From assembly GCF_039363085.1 (NCBI RefSeq), contig NZ_CP134982.1:62001-126000 (forward strand): 64,000 nucleotides of DNA, given 5' to 3'. The notes beneath the pieces were generated by a model. The model was not told the DNA's origin, searched no databases, and was given only the letters and a program-made list of their open reading frames with translations. Made by a program: the position numbers and the translations under genes. Positions 351 to 63,657 of this stretch are shown here, one piece after another. Origin of the DNA: Buchnera aphidicola (Ceratoglyphina bambusae) (GTDB lineage Bacteria > Pseudomonadota > Gammaproteobacteria > Enterobacterales > Enterobacteriaceae). Positions within the stretch are counted from its first letter, which is position 1. Every line of letters begins with the position of its first letter.

Positions 351-1730
351 ATGAAAAAAAATTTTAATTGTTTTGTTCATGTTAACAAAATTTTTAAAAA
401 ATATGATTGTGTTTTAAAAAAGAATAAGAAAATTAAATTTGATAAAAAATTTCTTATAAATGATTTATATTTATCAAAAATTTTTAATATAAATTTAAAT
501 AATTTTTATTCGAAAGAAAAAAACTTTTTATATAAAATATTTAAAGAATTTTCTAAAAATTTAGAAATATTTTTATCAAACATGTTAGATTACAATATTA
601 AAGTAGATGTTGATAAAATAAAAATAAATACTTATAAAAAATATTTTAGAAATTCATCTTCTTTAATTAGTTTGAATTGTTTTAAAATAAATTCTATAAA
701 AGATTTTGGTTTTTTAATTTATTCTCATAGTTTCATACTAAGAATTTTAGAAATATTTTTTAGAGGAAAATACAATTTTTTATATGAAAATAAATTTAAT
801 AGTATTTCTTATAGTGAAATTTTTATAAATAACAAGTTTAAAAGCTGTGTTATTAAAAAATTATCTAAAATATTATATAAACATTTATTTTTAAATATAA
901 TTTCATATAGAACTAATAAATTTATGTACAAATTTAATAAAAATTTTTTTTCTTTAAATAATTTTGTAATTATTGTTAATTTTAATTTTTGTACTAATGA
1001 ACATAGCAATTCTTTTAGCATATGTTTCCCTTTAAATTTTATTAAATATGTAAATAAATTATTAATAAAAAAAATAAATAGTGCTAAAAAAATAAATAGT
1101 AAAATAACTTTTAATTTATTTAAAAATATAAAATTTGTTATGAAATCTTATTTAAAACATTTTTATATAACTTTGTTAAATTTATATAAATTAAAAAAAA
1201 ATGATATTCTAAAAATAGAAAATCCTAAAAAAACATTTATATATATTGATAAAAAATTATTTTTTACCGGTGAAAACATAGTTTTTAAAAGTAAAAATTC
1301 TATCTTAATACAAAAAATAGTTTATTCAACATTTTTAAAACATGGAGATAATATGAATAATGAATTAGACAAATTTAAAAAATATTCTTCAAAAAATAAT
1401 ACTGAAAGTAAATATGAGTTAGATAATGAAACTTTTTCTGAAAATTTAAATAAAGATGTTTTAAACTCAGAGGATTTAAATAAAAAAATTAATTATATTG
1501 GAGATATTAAAATAAAAATATCTGTAAAATTAGGTAGTGTAAAAATAAAAACAAAAAAATTATTGTCTATAAAAAATGGTTCAGTAATACAATTAAATAA
1601 ATTAGCTGGAGAGCCGTTAGATGTTTTAGCTAATAATTGTGTGATAGCTAAAGGTGAAATAGTGGTTATTAAAAATAGTTATGGAATTAGAATTTTAGAA
1701 ATATTAAATAATTTAAAAGAAATAAAATAA
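351..1730 (+). CDS. fliM-fliN: Fused flagellar switch protein FliM-FliN
   Basis: One 459-residue frame. Residues 1-334 follow FliM from the middle domain to its C-terminal SpoA domain. Residues 335-459 follow FliN, with a variable N-terminal tail and a well-conserved SpoA domain at ~383-455 containing LAGEPLDVLAN and KGEIVV. Separate E. coli proteins have 334 and 137 residues, so both are nearly full length and no stop lies between them. FliM and FliN form the cytoplasmic C-ring, which switches rotation and docks export substrates. The N-terminal CheY-binding motif of FliM (EIDALL type) is not visible. The middle-domain GGxG loop reads RGKY. Both losses fit a bacterium without chemotaxis. ATG 1353 has GGAG five bases upstream, so FliN may also be made on its own. 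Start ATG 351 follows an AAGGAAA site. Confidence 0.87.
   Translation: MKKNFNCFVHVNKIFKKYDCVLKKNKKIKFDKKFLINDLYLSKIFNINLNNFYSKEKNFLYKIFKEFSKNLEIFLSNMLDYNIKVDVDKIKINTYKKYFRNSSSLISLNCFKINSIKDFGFLIYSHSFILRILEIFFRGKYNFLYENKFNSISYSEIFINNKFKSCVIKKLSKILYKHLFLNIISYRTNKFMYKFNKNFFSLNNFVIIVNFNFCTNEHSNSFSICFPLNFIKYVNKLLIKKINSAKKINSKITFNLFKNIKFVMKSYLKHFYITLLNLYKLKKNDILKIENPKKTFIYIDKKLFFTGENIVFKSKNSILIQKIVYSTFLKHGDNMNNELDKFKKYSSKNNTESKYELDNETFSENLNKDVLNSEDLNKKINYIGDIKIKISVKLGSVKIKTKKLLSIKNGSVIQLNKLAGEPLDVLANNCVIAKGEIVVIKNSYGIRILEILNNLKEIK
1344..1355 (+). promoter_or_regulatory. Internal ribosome binding site and start for free FliN
   Basis: GGAG at 1344-1347 is five bases upstream of an in-frame ATG at 1353-1355, exactly where the FliN homology begins in the fused fliM-fliN frame. 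G-rich tetramers are rare in this sequence, which makes a retained initiation site plausible. It would give a free ~125-residue FliN alongside the fusion. Internal starts of this kind are known in SctQ proteins of virulence type III secretion systems. No protein evidence is available here. Confidence 0.5.
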
Positions 1731-35028: not shown

Positions 35029-36945
35029 ATGTCAGTAGTAATATTTCCTGATGGATCTAGAAAAATATATACAGAAAAGTTTTTAACAAAAAATATTTTT
35101 AAAAATATTAATATAAAAAATGAATTTTTAATTGCATTAAAAGTAGACAATAAATTAATTGATTTAAACGATTCAATTAATAGATATAAAAAAGTGTTTT
35201 TAATAACAAATAAAAAATATAAAATTTTTTTAAAATTAATACGATCTACTTGCGCAAATTTACTATCTCATTCTATTAAAAAAATATGGCCTAATTCTAA
35301 AATGGCTGGATTTAAAATTACTACAAATGGTTTTTATTGTGATTTTGATGTTCCAGAAAATTTTAATAATAAACATTTAATTTTAATATATAATAAAATG
35401 ATAGAACTATGTAAAAGAAAATATGTAATAACTAAAAGATCATTTTCTGTGGATAGATTAATAAAATTTTTTTTTTCTAGAAAAGAAATTTATCAAGTTG
35501 AAATTTTAAAAGAAATTAAAAAAAAAAATGAATTTATAAATATTTATTTTCATAATAATTATTTAATTTTTATTCCTGGAGTTCAATTATATAATATAAA
35601 TTTATGTATAAATTTTTCTTTAACGAAATTTTCTGGAGTATATTGGAAAAATGATAAAAAAAATAAAGTTTTACAAAGAATATATTGTATATCTTTAGAT
35701 TCTAAAAAAACTCTATTAAATTGTTTAAAAAAAAATGTAGAAAATATTGAAGTAGATCATAGAAAAATTGGATCCAAATTGAATTTATATCATATTCAAA
35801 AAGAATCCCCTGGTATGATATTTTGGCATAAAAATGGTTTAATTATATTTAAATTATTAAAGAAATTTATTAGAAAGCATTTGGAAAAATATGACTATGA
35901 AGAAGTTTCTACTCCATTAATTATGAAAAAAATTATTTGGGAAAAAAGCGGTCATTTAGGAAATTATGCAGATAATATTTTTAAAACTTTTTCTGAAAAT
36001 AAAGAGTATTGTATTAAACCTATGAATTGTCCTGGTCACATTCAGATATTTAAAAAAAATATTAAATCTTATAAGGATTTACCTATTAGATTGTCTGAAT
36101 TTGGAATATGTCATAGAAATGAATATTCTGGATCTTTGCATGGATTAATGAGAATTAGATCTTTCACTCAAGATGATGCGCATATTTTTTGTAGTAAATA
36201 TCAAATTGAAAATGAAGTTAATAATTGTATTGATATGATATTTGATATATATAAAATTTTTAATTTCAATAATGTTAAAGTGCAATTTTCTACTAGACCT
36301 AAAAAAAGTATAGGTAGTGATAGTACTTGGGAATTTTCAGAAAATCTTTTATCTAAAATTTTAAATAATAAGAATATTAAATTTACAATTAAAACAGGAG
36401 AAGGTGCTTTTTATGGTCCTAAAATAGAATTTATATTAAAAGATAGTTTAAACAGATTTTGGCAATGTGGAACTATTCAGTTAGATTTTTATATTGCTAA
36501 ACGTTTAAAAGTTTTTTATATTAACAAACATAATATAAAAAAAAATCCTATTATAATTCATAGAGCTATTTTAGGATCTATAGAAAGATTTATAGGAATA
36601 TTAATAGAAGAATATAATGGATATTTTCCATTATGGTTAGCTCCTATACAAATTGTTATATTAAGTATAACTGAAAAAAATATAAATTATGTAAACAATC
36701 TTTTTGTTAAATTGAAGTCAAATAATTTTAGAATAATATATGATATTAAAAATATTCCATTAAATGCTAAAATAAGAAAATATTCTTATATGAAAATACC
36801 ATATATTTTAATTTGTGGTGATAGAGAAGAAAAAAATTCTAATTTTACTGTTAGATATATGAGTGGTAAAATTGTTAATAACGTTTTTTTAAAAGATTTT
36901 GTAAAACAAACTATTAAAAAAATATATTCTTATAGTTTTTTTTAA
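35029..36945 (+). CDS. thrS: Threonyl-tRNA synthetase with ablated editing site
   Basis: Class II synthetase, 638 residues (E. coli 642). The order is TGS domain (1-~60), editing domain (~62-225), catalytic core and anticodon domain. Zinc/active-site ligands of the core are present in [18 protein letters not shown] and IHRAILGS. In the editing domain the HxxxH pair reads Asn77-LLS-His81. The segment equivalent to E. coli Y-V-D-M-C-R-G-P-H reads YLIFIPGVQ, so Asp180, Cys182 and His186 are Ile, Ile and Gln. Hydrolysis of Ser-tRNA-Thr should be impaired or lost. It starts the thrS-infC-rpmI-rplT cluster, two bases from the TTG that opens the infC frame. Confidence 0.96.
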
Positions 36946-39265: not shown

Positions 39266-41659
39266 ATGAAAATAAGTAAAAGTTGGATTGTAGAATGGTT
39301 AGATTCTTCAATTAATGTAAAAGATATTTATAAAAGTTTAAACAAGTCTGGTATAGAAGTAGAAAATTTTAAAAAAGTTTTTATTAATAATTATAATTTG
39401 TGTTATGGTAAAATATTAAGTAGAAAAAAAATTGTTTTAAGAGATATTTTTTTTTTTAAATATAATGTTAAAATAAAAAAAAATAAATTTTTAAAAATAT
39501 TATCTAAATTTAAATGTAATGTTAATAAAATATTTGTTTTATCTATTTGTAAAAATTCTTTTCCTCAAAGAATTTTTGATTCTTTACAAAAATATCATCA
39601 TTCTTCTTCCGAAGGTTTTTTATGTTCACCATTTTCTATTGGTGTTTCTACAAAAAAAAAACAACCAGTAGAATTGTCTGAATATAATAGTATGAATAAA
39701 ATTATAAATAAAAATTTTTATATTTGTGATTATATAATTAAATTAAATATTCCTTATAATAGAATAGAAGAATTAAGTGTTTTAGGGATTTCTAGAGAAA
39801 TATATTCTATAAATAATATATTATTTCCTAATTTAATAAATAATAATAAAAATATTTCTTATGTTAGTAATTTTTTTAATGTATACGTTGAAGAAAATAT
39901 AAATAATTACAGTTATGTGGGTAGAATTTTCAATAAAATAAATTTTTTTGCTGATACTCCAGAATGGATGTTGCATAGATTAAAAATTAATGGATTTAAG
40001 AATAAAAATGTTTTAAAAAATATAATAAATTATGTATTTTTAGAATTAGGAGAATCATTTCATATTTTTAATATTGATTCAGGAAATAAAAAAATATTTA
40101 TAAAAATTTTAAAAAATTTTCAAAAAATTTGTGTAAATAAAAAAATTTTTTTTTTAAAAAAAAATGTGTTAGTGATTTGTAATAAAAAAAAAATATTAGT
40201 ATTTGGAAATAATTACAATACTGAAAATTTTTATAATAAAAAAAAACATAATAGAATATTTTTAGGATCACTTTTTTTAAAAGATTCAGTGTTTAAAAAC
40301 TATAAAAAAAATAGTTTTAATGAATATAATATAAATTATTTTAAATATAGTACTAATTTAAAAATTCAGTTGTTTGCATTAAATTACATTACTAAATTAA
40401 TTTTAAGAATTTGCGGGGGGGATGCTGAGGATATTTTTAACATAAAAAATGTTAGTGAAGTTAAAAAAAAAAAAATTGTTTTATTTAAAAATAAAATTAA
40501 AAAAATTATAGGTATAAAAATACCTAATATTATTATTGAAAAAATTTTATATACATTAGGTTATAAATTTTATAAAAATAAATTTGGGTGGAATATAGTA
40601 GTTCCTTATTGGAGAAAAGATATTTTAATTGAAGAAGATGTAATATCTGATATATTAAGAATTTATGGAATAGATAGAATATCTAATATTTCACCTTTAG
40701 AAAAATGTCAAATACATAAGAATGATTTTTTAAACTATAATATTTTAAAAAAAATAAAATATTTTTTAAAAAATATAGGTTATAATGAAGTAATAAATTA
40801 TAGTTTTATAGATATATATTATAAAAATATCTTTTGCTCTGATCTTAATGATATAATTATTAAAAATCCTATTTCTAAAAATATGTCTGTTATGAGATCT
40901 TCTTTATGGCCATGTTTGTTAAATAATTTTATATATAATAAAAATAGACAACAAGATCATATTCGTTTATTTGAATCTGGATATTGTTTTATAAAAGATA
41001 AAAAAAAATATTTAGGAATAAATCAAAAATTTTTACTTTCTGGAATTTTATATGGAAAATTAAATAAATTAGATTGGAGTACAAAGGAAAGAGATTTAGA
41101 TTTTTATGATTTAAAAGGAGATATAGAGTCTATTCTAAAATTTTTTAGATTAGATAATAATGTAACATTTATTAAAGAAAAAATAAATGGATTAAAAGAA
41201 AATTTTAGTTTTTATATTTTTTTAAACAAAAAATGTATTGGTAAATTTGGTAAGTTATCTTCTTCTGCTCTGAAAAAAAATAATTTTAAAAAGAAATTTA
41301 ATATATTTTTATTTGAAATATATTTTGATGATATAAATAAAAAACAAATTTTTAAAATAAACAAAATTTCTAGTTATCCTAAAATTATTAGAGATATTTC
41401 TATTATAGTTTCGGAAAATATAAAATATATTAAAGTAACAGAATTTTTTAAAAAAATATTTAAAAAATATTTGATAGAATTTAAGATATTTGATTTATAT
41501 ACAGGCAGCAAAATACCTAAAGGGAAAAAAAGTATATCTATTAGATTAGTATTACAAAGCTTGAATAAAACATTAAAAGAATCTTATATAGATAATATAA
41601 TTGAAAACAATATGAAAATTTTAAAATTAAAATTTAATGCTATAATAAAATGTAAATAG
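39266..41659 (+). CDS. pheT: Phenylalanyl-tRNA synthetase beta subunit
   Basis: 797 residues (E. coli 795). Recognisable parts are the N-terminal KISKSWIVEWL region, a degraded OB-fold up to SSSEGFLCSPFSIGV, the B3/B4 editing module (~240-370) starting TPEWMLHRLKINGF, the DILIEEDVISDILRIYGIDRI segment and the C-terminal anticodon-binding B8 domain. In the editing module the His of ESFHIF is present, but the HTDASHRYERG block of E. coli reads NEYNINYFKYS, so Phe/Tyr editing may be weakened. The gene carries an in-frame A13 run at 40463-40475. ihfA, which follows pheT in enterics, is missing. Confidence 0.95.
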   Translation: MKISKSWIVEWLDSSINVKDIYKSLNKSGIEVENFKKVFINNYNLCYGKILSRKKIVLRDIFFFKYNVKIKKNKFLKILSKFKCNVNKIFVLSICKNSFPQRIFDSLQKYHHSSSEGFLCSPFSIGVSTKKKQPVELSEYNSMNKIINKNFYICDYIIKLNIPYNRIEELSVLGISREIYSINNILFPNLINNNKNISYVSNFFNVYVEENINNYSYVGRIFNKINFFADTPEWMLHRLKINGFKNKNVLKNIINYVFLELGESFHIFNIDSGNKKIFIKILKNFQKICVNKKIFFLKKNVLVICNKKKILVFGNNYNTENFYNKKKHNRIFLGSLFLKDSVFKNYKKNSFNEYNINYFKYSTNLKIQLFALNYITKLILRICGGDAEDIFNIKNVSEVKKKKIVLFKNKIKKIIGIKIPNIIIEKILYTLGYKFYKNKFGWNIVVPYWRKDILIEEDVISDILRIYGIDRISNISPLEKCQIHKNDFLNYNILKKIKYFLKNIGYNEVINYSFIDIYYKNIFCSDLNDIIIKNPISKNMSVMRSSLWPCLLNNFIYNKNRQQDHIRLFESGYCFIKDKKKYLGINQKFLLSGILYGKLNKLDWSTKERDLDFYDLKGDIESILKFFRLDNNVTFIKEKINGLKENFSFYIFLNKKCIGKFGKLSSSALKKNNFKKKFNIFLFEIYFDDINKKQIFKINKISSYPKIIRDISIIVSENIKYIKVTEFFKKIFKKYLIEFKIFDLYTGSKIPKGKKSISIRLVLQSLNKTLKESYIDNIIENNMKILKLKFNAIIKCK

Positions 41660-53874: not shown

Positions 53875-56694
53875 TTATAAAAATTTTCTAATTTCTCCTT
53901 TTCCTTCAATATTATTTATACATCTTTTGCATATGCTTTTATGTTTTTTATTTTTTATAATTTTTTCATAAAAAAAATTCCAACATCTATTACATTTTTT
54001 ACCAATATTTTTTTTTATTAATATTTTCAAATTTTTTTTTATGTCATTTAAATCAGAATTTTTTTCTTTGAAATGTTTTTTTTTTATTTTTACTTTAGAT
54101 GTTATAAATAAAAATTTTATTTCTTTTTTTAATGTTCTTATTTTTTTTTCAAAAGTAGAATTTATGTAAATTATTATAAATGATTCTAAAGAATTTTTTA
54201 CTATTTTTTTTTTAATAGATTCTTCTAATTTTTTATTTACTTCATTTTTTATTAATATTAAATTGTCCCAATCTTTTAAGCTTAAAATTTCATTTTTTGA
54301 AAAATTTTTTAATTTTTTATACCATTTTTGAGTAAAAACATATTTATTTTTTTTCTGTGGCACAAAATCCCAAATTTCATCTGATGTAAAAGGTAAAATA
54401 GGAGTAATCCATATTACTATTGCATTTAAAATTATATATAAAGATGTTTGGCAACTCTTTCTTTCTAAACTTTTTTTTGGTAAAGTATATAATCTATCTT
54501 TTACTATGTCTAAGTAAAATGATCCTAGTTCTGTATTAAAAAATTTTATAATTGTATTTATAACTTTATAAAATTTATATTTTTGGTATAAATTTATTAT
54601 TTTTTTTTGAATAATTTTTGTTTTTCCTATTATCCATTTATCTATTAAAACAAGTTTGTTATATTTTATTTTTTCTTTATTAGGATAAAAATCATATATA
54701 TTTGATATAATAAATTTTATTGTATTTCTAATTTTTCTATAAATATCAATTGTGTTTTTTATTACATTATCTGATATAACAATTTCTTTAGAGTAATTAG
54801 TAGATGCAACCCATAATCTTAAAATATCTGCTCCAAATTTTTTTGTTATGCTATTTGGCTCGATAATATTTCCTATCGACTTAGACATTTTTTTTCCATT
54901 TTTGTCTACAACGAAACCATGAGATATTATTTTTTTATATGGAGAAATGTTTTCGGTAGCTACAGATATTATTAAAGAAGACATAAACCATCCTCTATAT
55001 TGATCAGATCCTTCTATATATAAATCAGCTGATTTATTTTTATTAAAATTTTTATATATGGATTTAACATCTATAGAACCAGAATCAAACCATACATCTA
55101 ATACATCTTTACTTTTGAAAAATTTTTTATGATCTGATTTTAAGAATATTTTTTTTTTCAAGTTATGCCAATATTCATTTCCTTTATAATATATTTTATT
55201 TTTTATTATTTTAATGAATTTTTTTGTATTTTTATGCATTTTGTTATTTTTTTTATTTATAAAAATTGTTATTGGTACCCCCCAATACCTTTGTCTTGAA
55301 ATGCACCAATCTGGTCTATTTTTTATCATCTTGTATATTTTTTTTCCGCCCCATTTAGGAGACCATTTTATTTTTTTAATTTCTGAAAATATTTTGTTTT
55401 TTAAATTTCTCTTGTTTAAGTTTATAAACCATTGTGGTCTAGAAATAAAAATTGTTGGATAATTATGTCTCCAGCAAAAAGGATATTTATGGAATATAGT
55501 TTTTGTTTTAATTATTTTTTTTTTATCTTTTAATATTTTTATTATTATTTTGTTAGAATTAAAAATTTTTTTATTGTTTAATAATGGATGTATATTTTTT
55601 TTGTAATATCCTTTTTTATTTATTAAGTTAGAAATCTTTATATTATATTTTTTACTTATATTAAAATCTTCTTCTCCATGGTCTGGAGCTATATGAACTA
55701 TTCCAGTACCAGATTTTATATTTACATGTTTAGATAAAATTATAGGCACTTTTTTTTTTATAAAAGGATGTTCACAATTTATAAATTCTATTTTTTTACC
55801 TAATATGCAATTTATAATTTTCCATTTAAATATTTTAAATTTTTTTAAAACTTTTTTAGATATTTCTTTAGCAATAATTAAATTATTTGTTTTAGTTTCT
55901 ATTAAATTATAATAAATATTTGGATTTACAGATATTGCTTTATTAGAAGGTAAGGTCCATGGTGTAGTTGTCCATATTACAGCATAAATATTTTTTTTAT
56001 TTTTTTTTTTTATTTTAAAAATCTTATGTGTATTATTATCTTTAATAATTTTAAAGTTAACAAAAATAGTTTTACATTTTTGTTTCGTATATTTTAATTC
56101 TGATTCTGCTAAAGATGATTGGCATTTTATACACCAATGTATAGGTTTATGTGCAGAATAAATGTATTTTTTTTCAATTAATTTTTCTAATTTATTTAAA
56201 ACATTTTTTTGGCTTTTAAAACTCATAGTTAAATGTGATTTATTCCAATTTGCAAATATTCCTAATTTTATAAATTCTTCTTTTTGTTTTTTTATTTGTT
56301 TTAAAACATATTTTTTGCATGCTTTGTTAAATTTATTTAATGCAAAATTTTTATTGTTTTTTTTAAATTTTTCTTCAATTTTTTGTTCTATAGGAAGCCC
56401 ATGGCAATCCCATGATGGAGTATATAATGTATTCATGCCAGACAGATTTTTATATTTTATTATTATGTCTTTCAATATTTTATTCAATGCATGACCTATA
56501 TGAATATTTCCATTAGCATATGGAGGTCCATCTTGTAATATAAATTTTTTGTTGAACTTATTTTTTTTTTTTATTATTTTATATATATTTATTTTTTTCC
56601 ATTTTTTTAAAATTTTTGGCTCTTTGTTTATTAAATCAGCTCTCATAGAGAATTTTGTTTTAGGTAGATTTAATGTATTTTTATAATTTTTCAT
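53875..56694 (-). CDS. ileS: Isoleucyl-tRNA synthetase
   Basis: Class I synthetase, 939 residues (E. coli 938). The HIGH motif is in PYANGNIHIGHALNK at ~66. The CP1 editing domain keeps the Thr-rich TTTPWTLPSN and the Asp-containing APDHGEEDF, so Val editing looks intact, unlike ThrRS here. KMSKS occurs in GKKMSKSIGN at ~605. The C-terminal zinc site has CNRCWNF and CKRC. rpsT is divergent upstream; ribF, which precedes ileS in E. coli, is not seen. Confidence 0.97.
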   Translation of the reverse strand: MKNYKNTLNLPKTKFSMRADLINKEPKILKKWKKINIYKIIKKKNKFNKKFILQDGPPYANGNIHIGHALNKILKDIIIKYKNLSGMNTLYTPSWDCHGLPIEQKIEEKFKKNNKNFALNKFNKACKKYVLKQIKKQKEEFIKLGIFANWNKSHLTMSFKSQKNVLNKLEKLIEKKYIYSAHKPIHWCIKCQSSLAESELKYTKQKCKTIFVNFKIIKDNNTHKIFKIKKKNKKNIYAVIWTTTPWTLPSNKAISVNPNIYYNLIETKTNNLIIAKEISKKVLKKFKIFKWKIINCILGKKIEFINCEHPFIKKKVPIILSKHVNIKSGTGIVHIAPDHGEEDFNISKKYNIKISNLINKKGYYKKNIHPLLNNKKIFNSNKIIIKILKDKKKIIKTKTIFHKYPFCWRHNYPTIFISRPQWFINLNKRNLKNKIFSEIKKIKWSPKWGGKKIYKMIKNRPDWCISRQRYWGVPITIFINKKNNKMHKNTKKFIKIIKNKIYYKGNEYWHNLKKKIFLKSDHKKFFKSKDVLDVWFDSGSIDVKSIYKNFNKNKSADLYIEGSDQYRGWFMSSLIISVATENISPYKKIISHGFVVDKNGKKMSKSIGNIIEPNSITKKFGADILRLWVASTNYSKEIVISDNVIKNTIDIYRKIRNTIKFIISNIYDFYPNKEKIKYNKLVLIDKWIIGKTKIIQKKIINLYQKYKFYKVINTIIKFFNTELGSFYLDIVKDRLYTLPKKSLERKSCQTSLYIILNAIVIWITPILPFTSDEIWDFVPQKKNKYVFTQKWYKKLKNFSKNEILSLKDWDNLILIKNEVNKKLEESIKKKIVKNSLESFIIIYINSTFEKKIRTLKKEIKFLFITSKVKIKKKHFKEKNSDLNDIKKNLKILIKKNIGKKCNRCWNFFYEKIIKNKKHKSICKRCINNIEGKGEIRKFL

Positions 56695-61866: not shown

Positions 61867-63657
61867 ATGAAAATAAAAACAATAATCACTAATAATAATT
61901 TAAATTTTAACAATTGTTCTAATTTTTCTATTATAAATAAATTAGTTAATATTTTTAAAAAAAATATATTAGCTATACAAAATACTAAAATTGGATGTGA
62001 TGTTATATGGATTAAAAAAGAAATTTTAATAGATGTTTTACTATTTTTAAAAAATATAAAAAAACCATATATTTTTTTATATGATCTTCATGGTATAGAT
62101 GAAAGAACAAGAATATATAAAGATGAATTACCTAAAGCAGATTTTTCTGTATTTTATTATATAATATCTATAGAAAGAAACAAAGATATAATGTTAAAAG
62201 TGCCATTAAAAAATGATGATTTAACAATAAATAGTATAACTAAATTATTTAAAAATTCTAATTGGTACGAATGTGAAACTTGGGAAATGTTTGGAATAAA
62301 ATTTTTAGGTCACCCATTTTTAAGAAGAATAATAATGCCTAGAAATTGGAAAGGTTATCCATTAAGAAAAGATTATTTAGCTAGAGCAACAGAAAGAGAA
62401 GAATATAATTTAAGCAAAGAAATTGAAAATATAGAAATGGAATCATTGAAGTTTAATCCAAAACATTGGGGAATGATTGATGAAAAAAATTCTGATTTTA
62501 TGTTTTTAAATTTAGGGCCAAATCATCCTTCTGTACATGGAGTCTTTAGAATAATATTAAAATTAAGAGGAGAAATAATTGTAGATTGTCTTCCTGATAT
62601 AGGATTTCATCATAGAGGAGCAGAAAAAATGGCTGAAAGGCAAACTTGGCATAATTATATTCCATATACTGATAGAATAGAATATTTAGGTGGTTGTGTT
62701 AATGAAATGCCTTATATATTGTCTTTAGAAAAATTAGCTAATATAATAGTTTCTGATAGAATTAAAGTTATAAGAGTAATGTTGTCTGAATTATTTAGAA
62801 TAAATAGTCATTTATTATATATAGCTACATTTATTCAGGATGTTGGAGCTATGACTCCAATATTTTTAATTTTTACAGACCGTCAAAAAATATATGATAT
62901 AATAGAAGCTATAACTGGTTTTAGAATGCATCCAGCATGGTTTAGAATAGGAGGTGTGTCTCATGATTTACCTATAGGGTGGAACAAATTATTAAAAAAT
63001 TTTTTAGAATGGATACCTAAAAGATTAAATTTATATTATAAAACTGCTTTAAAGAATAGTATATTAATAAATAGATCTAAAAATGTTGCTTGTTATGATA
63101 AAAATCAGGCATTGTCTTGGGGTATAACAGGAGCGGGGCTAAGAGCTACAGGAATAAATTTTGACGTTAGAAAATCCAGACCGTATTCTGGTTATGAAAA
63201 TTTTGATTTTAAAATACCATTAGGATACGAAAATAGTGATTGTTATACTAGAGTTATGCTTAAATTTGAAGAAATTTTTCAAAGTATAATTATTTTGCAG
63301 CAATGTATGGACAATATGCCAGAAGGGCCTTTTAAAGTAGATCATCCTTTAACTACTCCCCCTCCTAAAGAATTAGTATTTAATGATATTGAAAACATGA
63401 TATCTCATTTTTTGCAAGTTTCATGGGGGCCTATTATGCCATGTGATGAATCTTTTCAAATGATAGAAGGGACTAAAGGAATAAATAGTTATTATGTAAT
63501 AAGTGATAAAGGAAATATGAGTTATCGTACTAGAATTAGAACTCCTAGTTTTGCACATTTGCAACAAATTCCATCAGTTATAAATGGATATACTATTTCA
63601 GATTTAATTGCATATTTAGGTAGTATAGATTTTGTTATGTCAGATGTAGATAGATAA
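61867..63657 (+). CDS. nuoC: NADH-quinone oxidoreductase fused subunit C/D
   Basis: 596 residues (E. coli NuoCD 600). The NuoC part covers ~1-175, with [23 protein letters not shown] and the PLRKDY segment. The NuoD part follows from ~210, starting [14 protein letters not shown], with [14 protein letters not shown] and the C-terminal [12 protein letters not shown]. The C/D fusion is the normal enterobacterial form. It lines the quinone site together with NuoB. Confidence 0.97.

Follow-up and report, generated by a model that had tools for sequence, protein, structure and literature searches.

The threonyl-tRNA synthetase editing pocket is erased in a Buchnera aphidicola genome, very probably as part of a general loosening of tRNA-charging quality control

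Eroded editing sites in the aminoacyl-tRNA synthetases of host-restricted bacteria are already an established phenomenon. In Mycoplasma, the editing domains of ThrRS, PheRS and LeuRS are degenerate, as described by Li et al. (2011) and relayed in later papers (PMC7373986, PMC10057733, PMC4014445), and editing sites that are mutated or missing have been reported from host-restricted organisms with small genomes by Melnikov et al. (2018), as summarized in PMC7373986 and PMC10057733. According to PMC7373986, there is no known Mycoplasma genome from which three or more editing functions have been lost. For the Escherichia coli ThrRS, single substitutions are enough to cripple the activity: H73A and H186A lower the kcat of editing about 7000- and 70-fold, respectively, and C182A/S lowers it more than 500-fold, the C182A/S enzymes mischarging Ser (PMC4041444). 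The yeast mitochondrial ThrRS manages with no editing domain through pre-transfer hydrolysis of Ser-AMP, yet some Ser-tRNA(Thr) is formed (PMC4267643). The ThrRS of Buchnera aphidicola (Ceratoglyphina bambusae) described here is a clear further case of erosion. A limited literature search, in which Li et al. (2011) and Melnikov et al. (2018) were represented by papers that cite them, turned up nothing on ThrRS editing in Buchnera.

The gene lies in a stretch of 64,000 nucleotides (positions 62,001 to 126,000 of contig NZ_CP134982.1) that we refer to as the window. The genome totals 433,948 bp in three contigs, with a chromosome of 424,619 bp and, as the second contig, a pLeu-like plasmid that shares about 80% identity with the plasmids of Buchnera from Cerataphidini aphids. 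Elsewhere in the window (351-1730, + strand), a 459-aa open reading frame matches FliM and continues into FliN-like sequence, with two FliMN_C stretches, and is apparently a FliM-FliN fusion in a relic flagellar apparatus.

The uninterrupted thrS open reading frame stands in the gene order thrS-infC-rpmI-rplT-pheS-pheT, and its product scored 604.8 bits against the TIGR00418 equivalog model (cut-off, 383.65) and matched E. coli ThrRS (1qf6) with an E value of 1.5e-194 (Table 1). The first-pass annotation had held that the synthetic-site ligands are all present, and we found that each of the nine mapped residues (C334, R363, Q381, H385, Y462, Q484, H511, A513 and S517) is identical to its E. 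coli counterpart. Furthermore, 65 of the 69 catalytic-domain positions that are invariant across 45 ThrRSs with an intact catalytic editing set are kept in the window enzyme.

Table 1. Synthetase features discussed in the text. Positions are those of the window, except those prefixed G000:C1, which are given in the coordinates of the whole genome (G000).
Feature	Position	Strand	State	Basis
thrS, threonyl-tRNA synthetase	35029..36945	+	638 aa; full length, N1-N2-catalytic-anticodon	TIGR00418, 1qf6 match
N2 (editing) domain, residues 63-224	35215..35700	+	Fold family recognizable, pocket erased	Identity, PF07973
Former HxxxH motif	35245..35259	+	His73-Ser-Cys-Ala-His77 of E. coli is Ser73-Thr-Cys-Ala-Asn77; Ser73 codon 35245-35247, Asn77 codon 35257-35259	Alignment, register test
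His81	35269..35271	+	Counterpart of E. coli His81, non-catalytic	Alignment, register test
Pocket residue 95	35311..35313	+	G95 to Phe95	Residue mapping
Pocket residue 104	35338..35340	+	Y104 to Cys104	Residue mapping
Pocket residue 156	35494..35496	+	K156 to Gln156	Residue mapping
Former DMCRGPH motif (180-186)	35566..35586	+	IFIPGVQ (D180I, C182I, P185V, H186Q); codons Ile180 35566-35568, Ile182 35572-35574, Gln186 35584-35586	Alignment
ThrRS zinc ligands	36028..36561	+	Cys334 (36028), His385 (36181) and His511 (36559) intact	Residue mapping to E. coli
pheT, PheRS beta	39266..41659	+	G318N (40217), E334G (40265), T354E (40322); H265 kept	3pco alignment
ileS, IleRS (control)	53875..56694	-	T241-T243, N250, H333 and D342 present	Residue mapping
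ProRS (L164)	G000:C1:186004-187569		INS editing domain shrunken	INS length, Pfam
LeuRS (L105)	G000:C1:318798-321323			CP1 site residues

Identity to the E. coli enzyme is 59% in the catalytic domain versus 35% in N2, and the tRNA_SAD model PF07973 gave 12.7 bits on the window ThrRS, under its gathering cut-off of 24 bits. The replacements of Asp180 and Cys182 by Ile and of His186 by Gln, as first annotated, were confirmed by mapping to E. coli numbering. The same annotation had paired His73 with Asn77 and His77 with His81, a register that is off by four residues; the true pairs are His73 with Ser73, whose codon falls just outside the interval first annotated (35257-35586), and His77 with Asn77. 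Aligned in this way, E. coli IIRH(73)SCAH(77)LLGH(81) and Buchnera LIRS(73)TCAN(77)LLSH(81) fall within a stretch with 15 of 29 identities, and the register shifted by four, with 1 of 29, was rejected. Because the surviving His81 pairs with the non-catalytic His81 of E. coli, both catalytic histidines are gone and the loss is fuller than was first described. Position 81 is Tyr in most other members of the genus.

We also asked how this loss compares with the general divergence of the domain. Among the 45 reference ThrRSs, 23 N2 positions are invariant, the five catalytic ones partly by construction, since the intact set was selected by those very positions. The window enzyme keeps none of the seven invariants that belong to the pocket, as defined from general background and PMC4041444, versus 11 of the remaining 16 (Fisher p = 0.003, a value that is only indicative because the reference set was chosen by its catalytic residues and the pocket list draws partly on general background). 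These counts point to pocket loss that exceeds background drift.

A survey of ThrRS in other Buchnera, already envisaged in the first-pass annotation, extended the loss to all six members of the genus and revealed graded loss in other aphid symbionts. In each of the six genomes (this one and the Buchnera of Chaitoregma tattakana, Astegopteryx bambusae, Ceratovacuna japonica, C. keduensis and Pseudoregma panicola) all five catalytic residues are absent, with Ser, Val or Asn at position 73 and Asn or Gln at position 77. Among the other aphid symbionts, that of Formosaphis keeps D180 and C182 and has Tyr and Gln at 73 and 77, the Nipponaphis symbiont keeps D180 only of the catalytic set, the Cinara confinis symbiont keeps C182 and the Baizongia symbiont keeps D180. 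Several small-genome symbionts have the set intact or with one or two residues changed, and it is intact in nearly all of the larger-genome relatives examined. At the other extreme, six reduced genomes of the family encode a ThrRS of 409-436 aa with neither N1 nor N2.

Loss of post-transfer Ser-tRNA(Thr) editing in this ThrRS is strongly supported at the level of sequence, because published single changes cripple editing, all of these residues are replaced together here, and no substitute was found in the three families searched (see below). We regard it as very probable that intact zinc-dependent charging is here combined with a dead N2 editing site, as one part of a general loosening of tRNA-charging quality control. 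This bacterial-type enzyme would charge tRNA(Thr) at its intact zinc-dependent synthetic site, whereas N2 would no longer be able to hydrolyze Ser-tRNA(Thr). The pocket probably decayed stepwise, since His73 and His77 are changed even where relatives keep Asp180 or Cys182, and drift together with relaxed selection would be the agents in a symbiont that is passed on vertically; the N2 scaffold would stay in frame, still aiding the folding of the enzyme or holding the tRNA acceptor stem. Discrimination of Thr from Ser would rest on the zinc site and on any pre-transfer hydrolysis of Ser-AMP there, a fallback that, by analogy with the yeast mitochondrial enzyme, seems the likeliest. Accuracy would further depend on the Thr:Ser ratio in the surroundings of the enzyme, and the cell would have to tolerate a mild Thr-to-Ser substitution; some Ser-for-Thr mistranslation would be expected in this Buchnera. 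The genome contains thrC (threonine synthase), and threonine can therefore probably be made inside the cell; serC is also present but says little about serine supply, as SerC also serves vitamin B6 synthesis. Editing by PheRS and ProRS, and perhaps by LeuRS, would have been hit by the same decay, which would not be a threonine-specific adaptation.

One possible reason why a domain with a dead pocket should be kept at all is that N2 has a role outside editing, be it a structural one or that of a clamp on the tRNA acceptor stem, so that only the scaffold is selected. This possibility is a refinement of the main explanation and not its opposite, and we judge the evidence for and against it to be evenly balanced. 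N2 is open at full length in all six genus genomes, most of its invariants outside the pocket survive, as counted above, and N2 is noted to provide an interface to which the acceptor stem binds (PMC4267643). The neighboring N1 is missing or out of frame in two Ceratovacuna symbionts, which have kept N2. On the other side, the six reduced symbionts that dropped both N1 and N2 show the module to be dispensable in principle. By the Nei-Gojobori method, on genus pairs, dN/dS was 0.14-0.26 in the catalytic domain and 0.21-1.05 in N2, the N2 values being 0.21-0.30 in the three closest pairs, in favor of a retained role, and 0.58-1.05 in pairs with this genome, against it, all of them rough because these AT-rich genomes offer few synonymous sites, which are moreover partly saturated. 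Values down to 0.21 imply that some function is still kept by N2, and the pattern fits a scaffold that is relaxed but not free.

The loss of activity in N2 would matter less if a free-standing or host-supplied factor cleared Ser-tRNA(Thr). Some insect hosts supply proteins to their symbionts. Suitable factors exist, as in the case of ThrRS-ed in archaea and ProXp-ST (PMC7373986), and a free-standing trans-editing protein encoded in the genome had been named in the first-pass annotation as a finding that would count against the loss. We searched the symbiont genome, family by family, for the three relevant families PF07973, PF04073 and PF02580 and found no substitute, although such a search would miss a host-encoded or structurally novel deacylase. 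In a profile search of the whole genome, AlaRS was the only match to tRNA_SAD, so no free-standing SAD or AlaX protein was detected; no Dtd-fold protein (PF02580) was found in the genome; and no YbaK-type protein was found, the sole PF04073 match being sub-threshold and inside the ProRS frame. On this evidence, we consider rescue by such a factor improbable.

It is also conceivable that N2 itself still edits, through a pocket remodeled around other residues, and it would be in keeping with this that the domain persists and still shows some constraint. However, Cys182, all three histidines, Asp180 and Lys156 are replaced; the replacements (Ser, Asn, Ile, Ile, Gln and Gln) are mostly unlikely activators of water; and they vary within the genus at positions 73 and 77, as drift predicts, so that we give a remodeled pocket very little credence. 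A structure predicted from the single sequence had a mean pLDDT of 35.8. Prediction with nine Clostridia relatives raised the better N2 regions to 70-90 but left most of residues 151-192, the second half of the pocket, below 50, and the model thus gives no verdict on pocket geometry. The match of the predicted model to ThrRS entries in the PDB (1qf6, 6vu9 and 1tje) supports the fold family only.

The first-pass annotation had also described the ThrRS loss as selective, on the grounds that IleRS in the window retains its editing residues. That IleRS retains them is correct, and we found in addition that ValRS keeps its TTRPETxxGD and K277 motifs and that the HxxxH and C-GTH motifs of AlaRS are intact. 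Selectivity did not hold up, however: PheRS beta has lost editing residues, the ProRS editing domain is degenerate, and LeuRS carries D345E. As a separate observation, IleRS position N250 is Ser or Cys in the Baizongia, Cinara confinis and Formosaphis symbionts and in two further genomes (G018 and G073), and in these aphid symbionts IleRS editing may be eroding.

The pheT gene starts 2.3 kb downstream of thrS. The B3/B4 editing domain of its product is kept as a fold (PF03483, 75.6 bits), but G318 is replaced, as are E334 and T354, which we take to be editing residues. Every one of the six genus members shows similar losses, and most of the other aphid symbionts likewise lack E334. In E. coli PheRS, the change of G318 to Trp alone lowers editing more than 70-fold (PMC4066437). 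In ProRS, the INS domain has 141 residues, versus 184 in E. coli-like ProRS, and falls under the Pfam cut-off; it is absent altogether from G018 and G077. The CP1 site of LeuRS keeps T247, T248, R249 and T252 and carries D342N and D345E, and Glu345 is found in five of the six genus members. On the assumption that LeuRS D345 and the ProRS INS residues are relevant to editing, LeuRS editing is perhaps lost through D345E, and the decay appears to have reached Thr, Phe and Pro, perhaps also Leu, which would amount to a general loosening and not a selective loss.

These results bear on the proposal that the ThrRS change is adaptive, yielding a statistical proteome specific to threonine. Fixation of the loss throughout the genus could be read in its favor, but PheRS and ProRS editing also appears to be lost in the same genome, the graded losses in relatives fit relaxed selection, and there is no evidence of a benefit; we consider this proposal very improbable. 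A sequencing or assembly artefact, or a pseudogene, has nothing in its favor and a negligible chance of explaining the data, being refuted by a state common to the genus: the same loss is present in the five other genomes, the 638-aa frame is open and stands in the gene order given above, and the catalytic domain is under strong purifying selection. The general loosening that we favor can be taken one step further for the Buchnera of Cerataphidini. Proofreading for Thr, Phe, Pro and perhaps Leu may have been lost together while that for Ile, Val and Ala was kept, so that the set of tolerable errors would be ordered by amino acid and not random, and the dead N2 would be kept only as a scaffold that holds the tRNA; we see this extended version as having an even chance of being right.

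Naturally editing-dead synthetases reveal the translation error load that a living cell can carry. A single symbiont family here provides a graded series of ThrRSs, from intact through partly eroded and fully erased pockets to a deleted domain, and the erased pocket coincides with PheRS and ProRS enzymes that appear to have lost their proofreading. This genome may thus be a case of at least three lost editing functions outside Mycoplasma, and it may be new in combining losses for Thr, Phe, Pro and possibly Leu with retained editing for Ile, Val and Ala. If the three losses hold, the limit of tolerance becomes testable in Buchnera proteins by mass spectrometry.

Compared with E. coli ThrRS (1qf6 and 1tje), the Buchnera enzyme has the same domain order, aligns from end to end and is identical at its synthetic and zinc residues, but every residue of the editing pocket is replaced. 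Like the yeast mitochondrial ThrRS, it would work without post-transfer editing by leaning on its synthetic site; there the editing domain is absent, whereas in Buchnera N2 seems to remain as an inert scaffold, and the deletion architecture of the yeast enzyme is matched instead by the six other symbiont genomes of our survey. The eroded sites of Melnikov et al. (2018), as the citing papers present them, are the same general phenomenon. Mycoplasma, to judge from the papers relaying Li et al. (2011), shares with this Buchnera a reduced, host-dependent genome, mutated editing residues, more than one affected synthetase and, for the three families searched in Buchnera, a lack of trans-editing factors; it differs in belonging to another phylum and in that mistranslation has been measured there, at Leu and Phe codons, whereas the Buchnera case is drawn from sequence, and Buchnera in addition has a degenerate ProRS editing domain that was once present.
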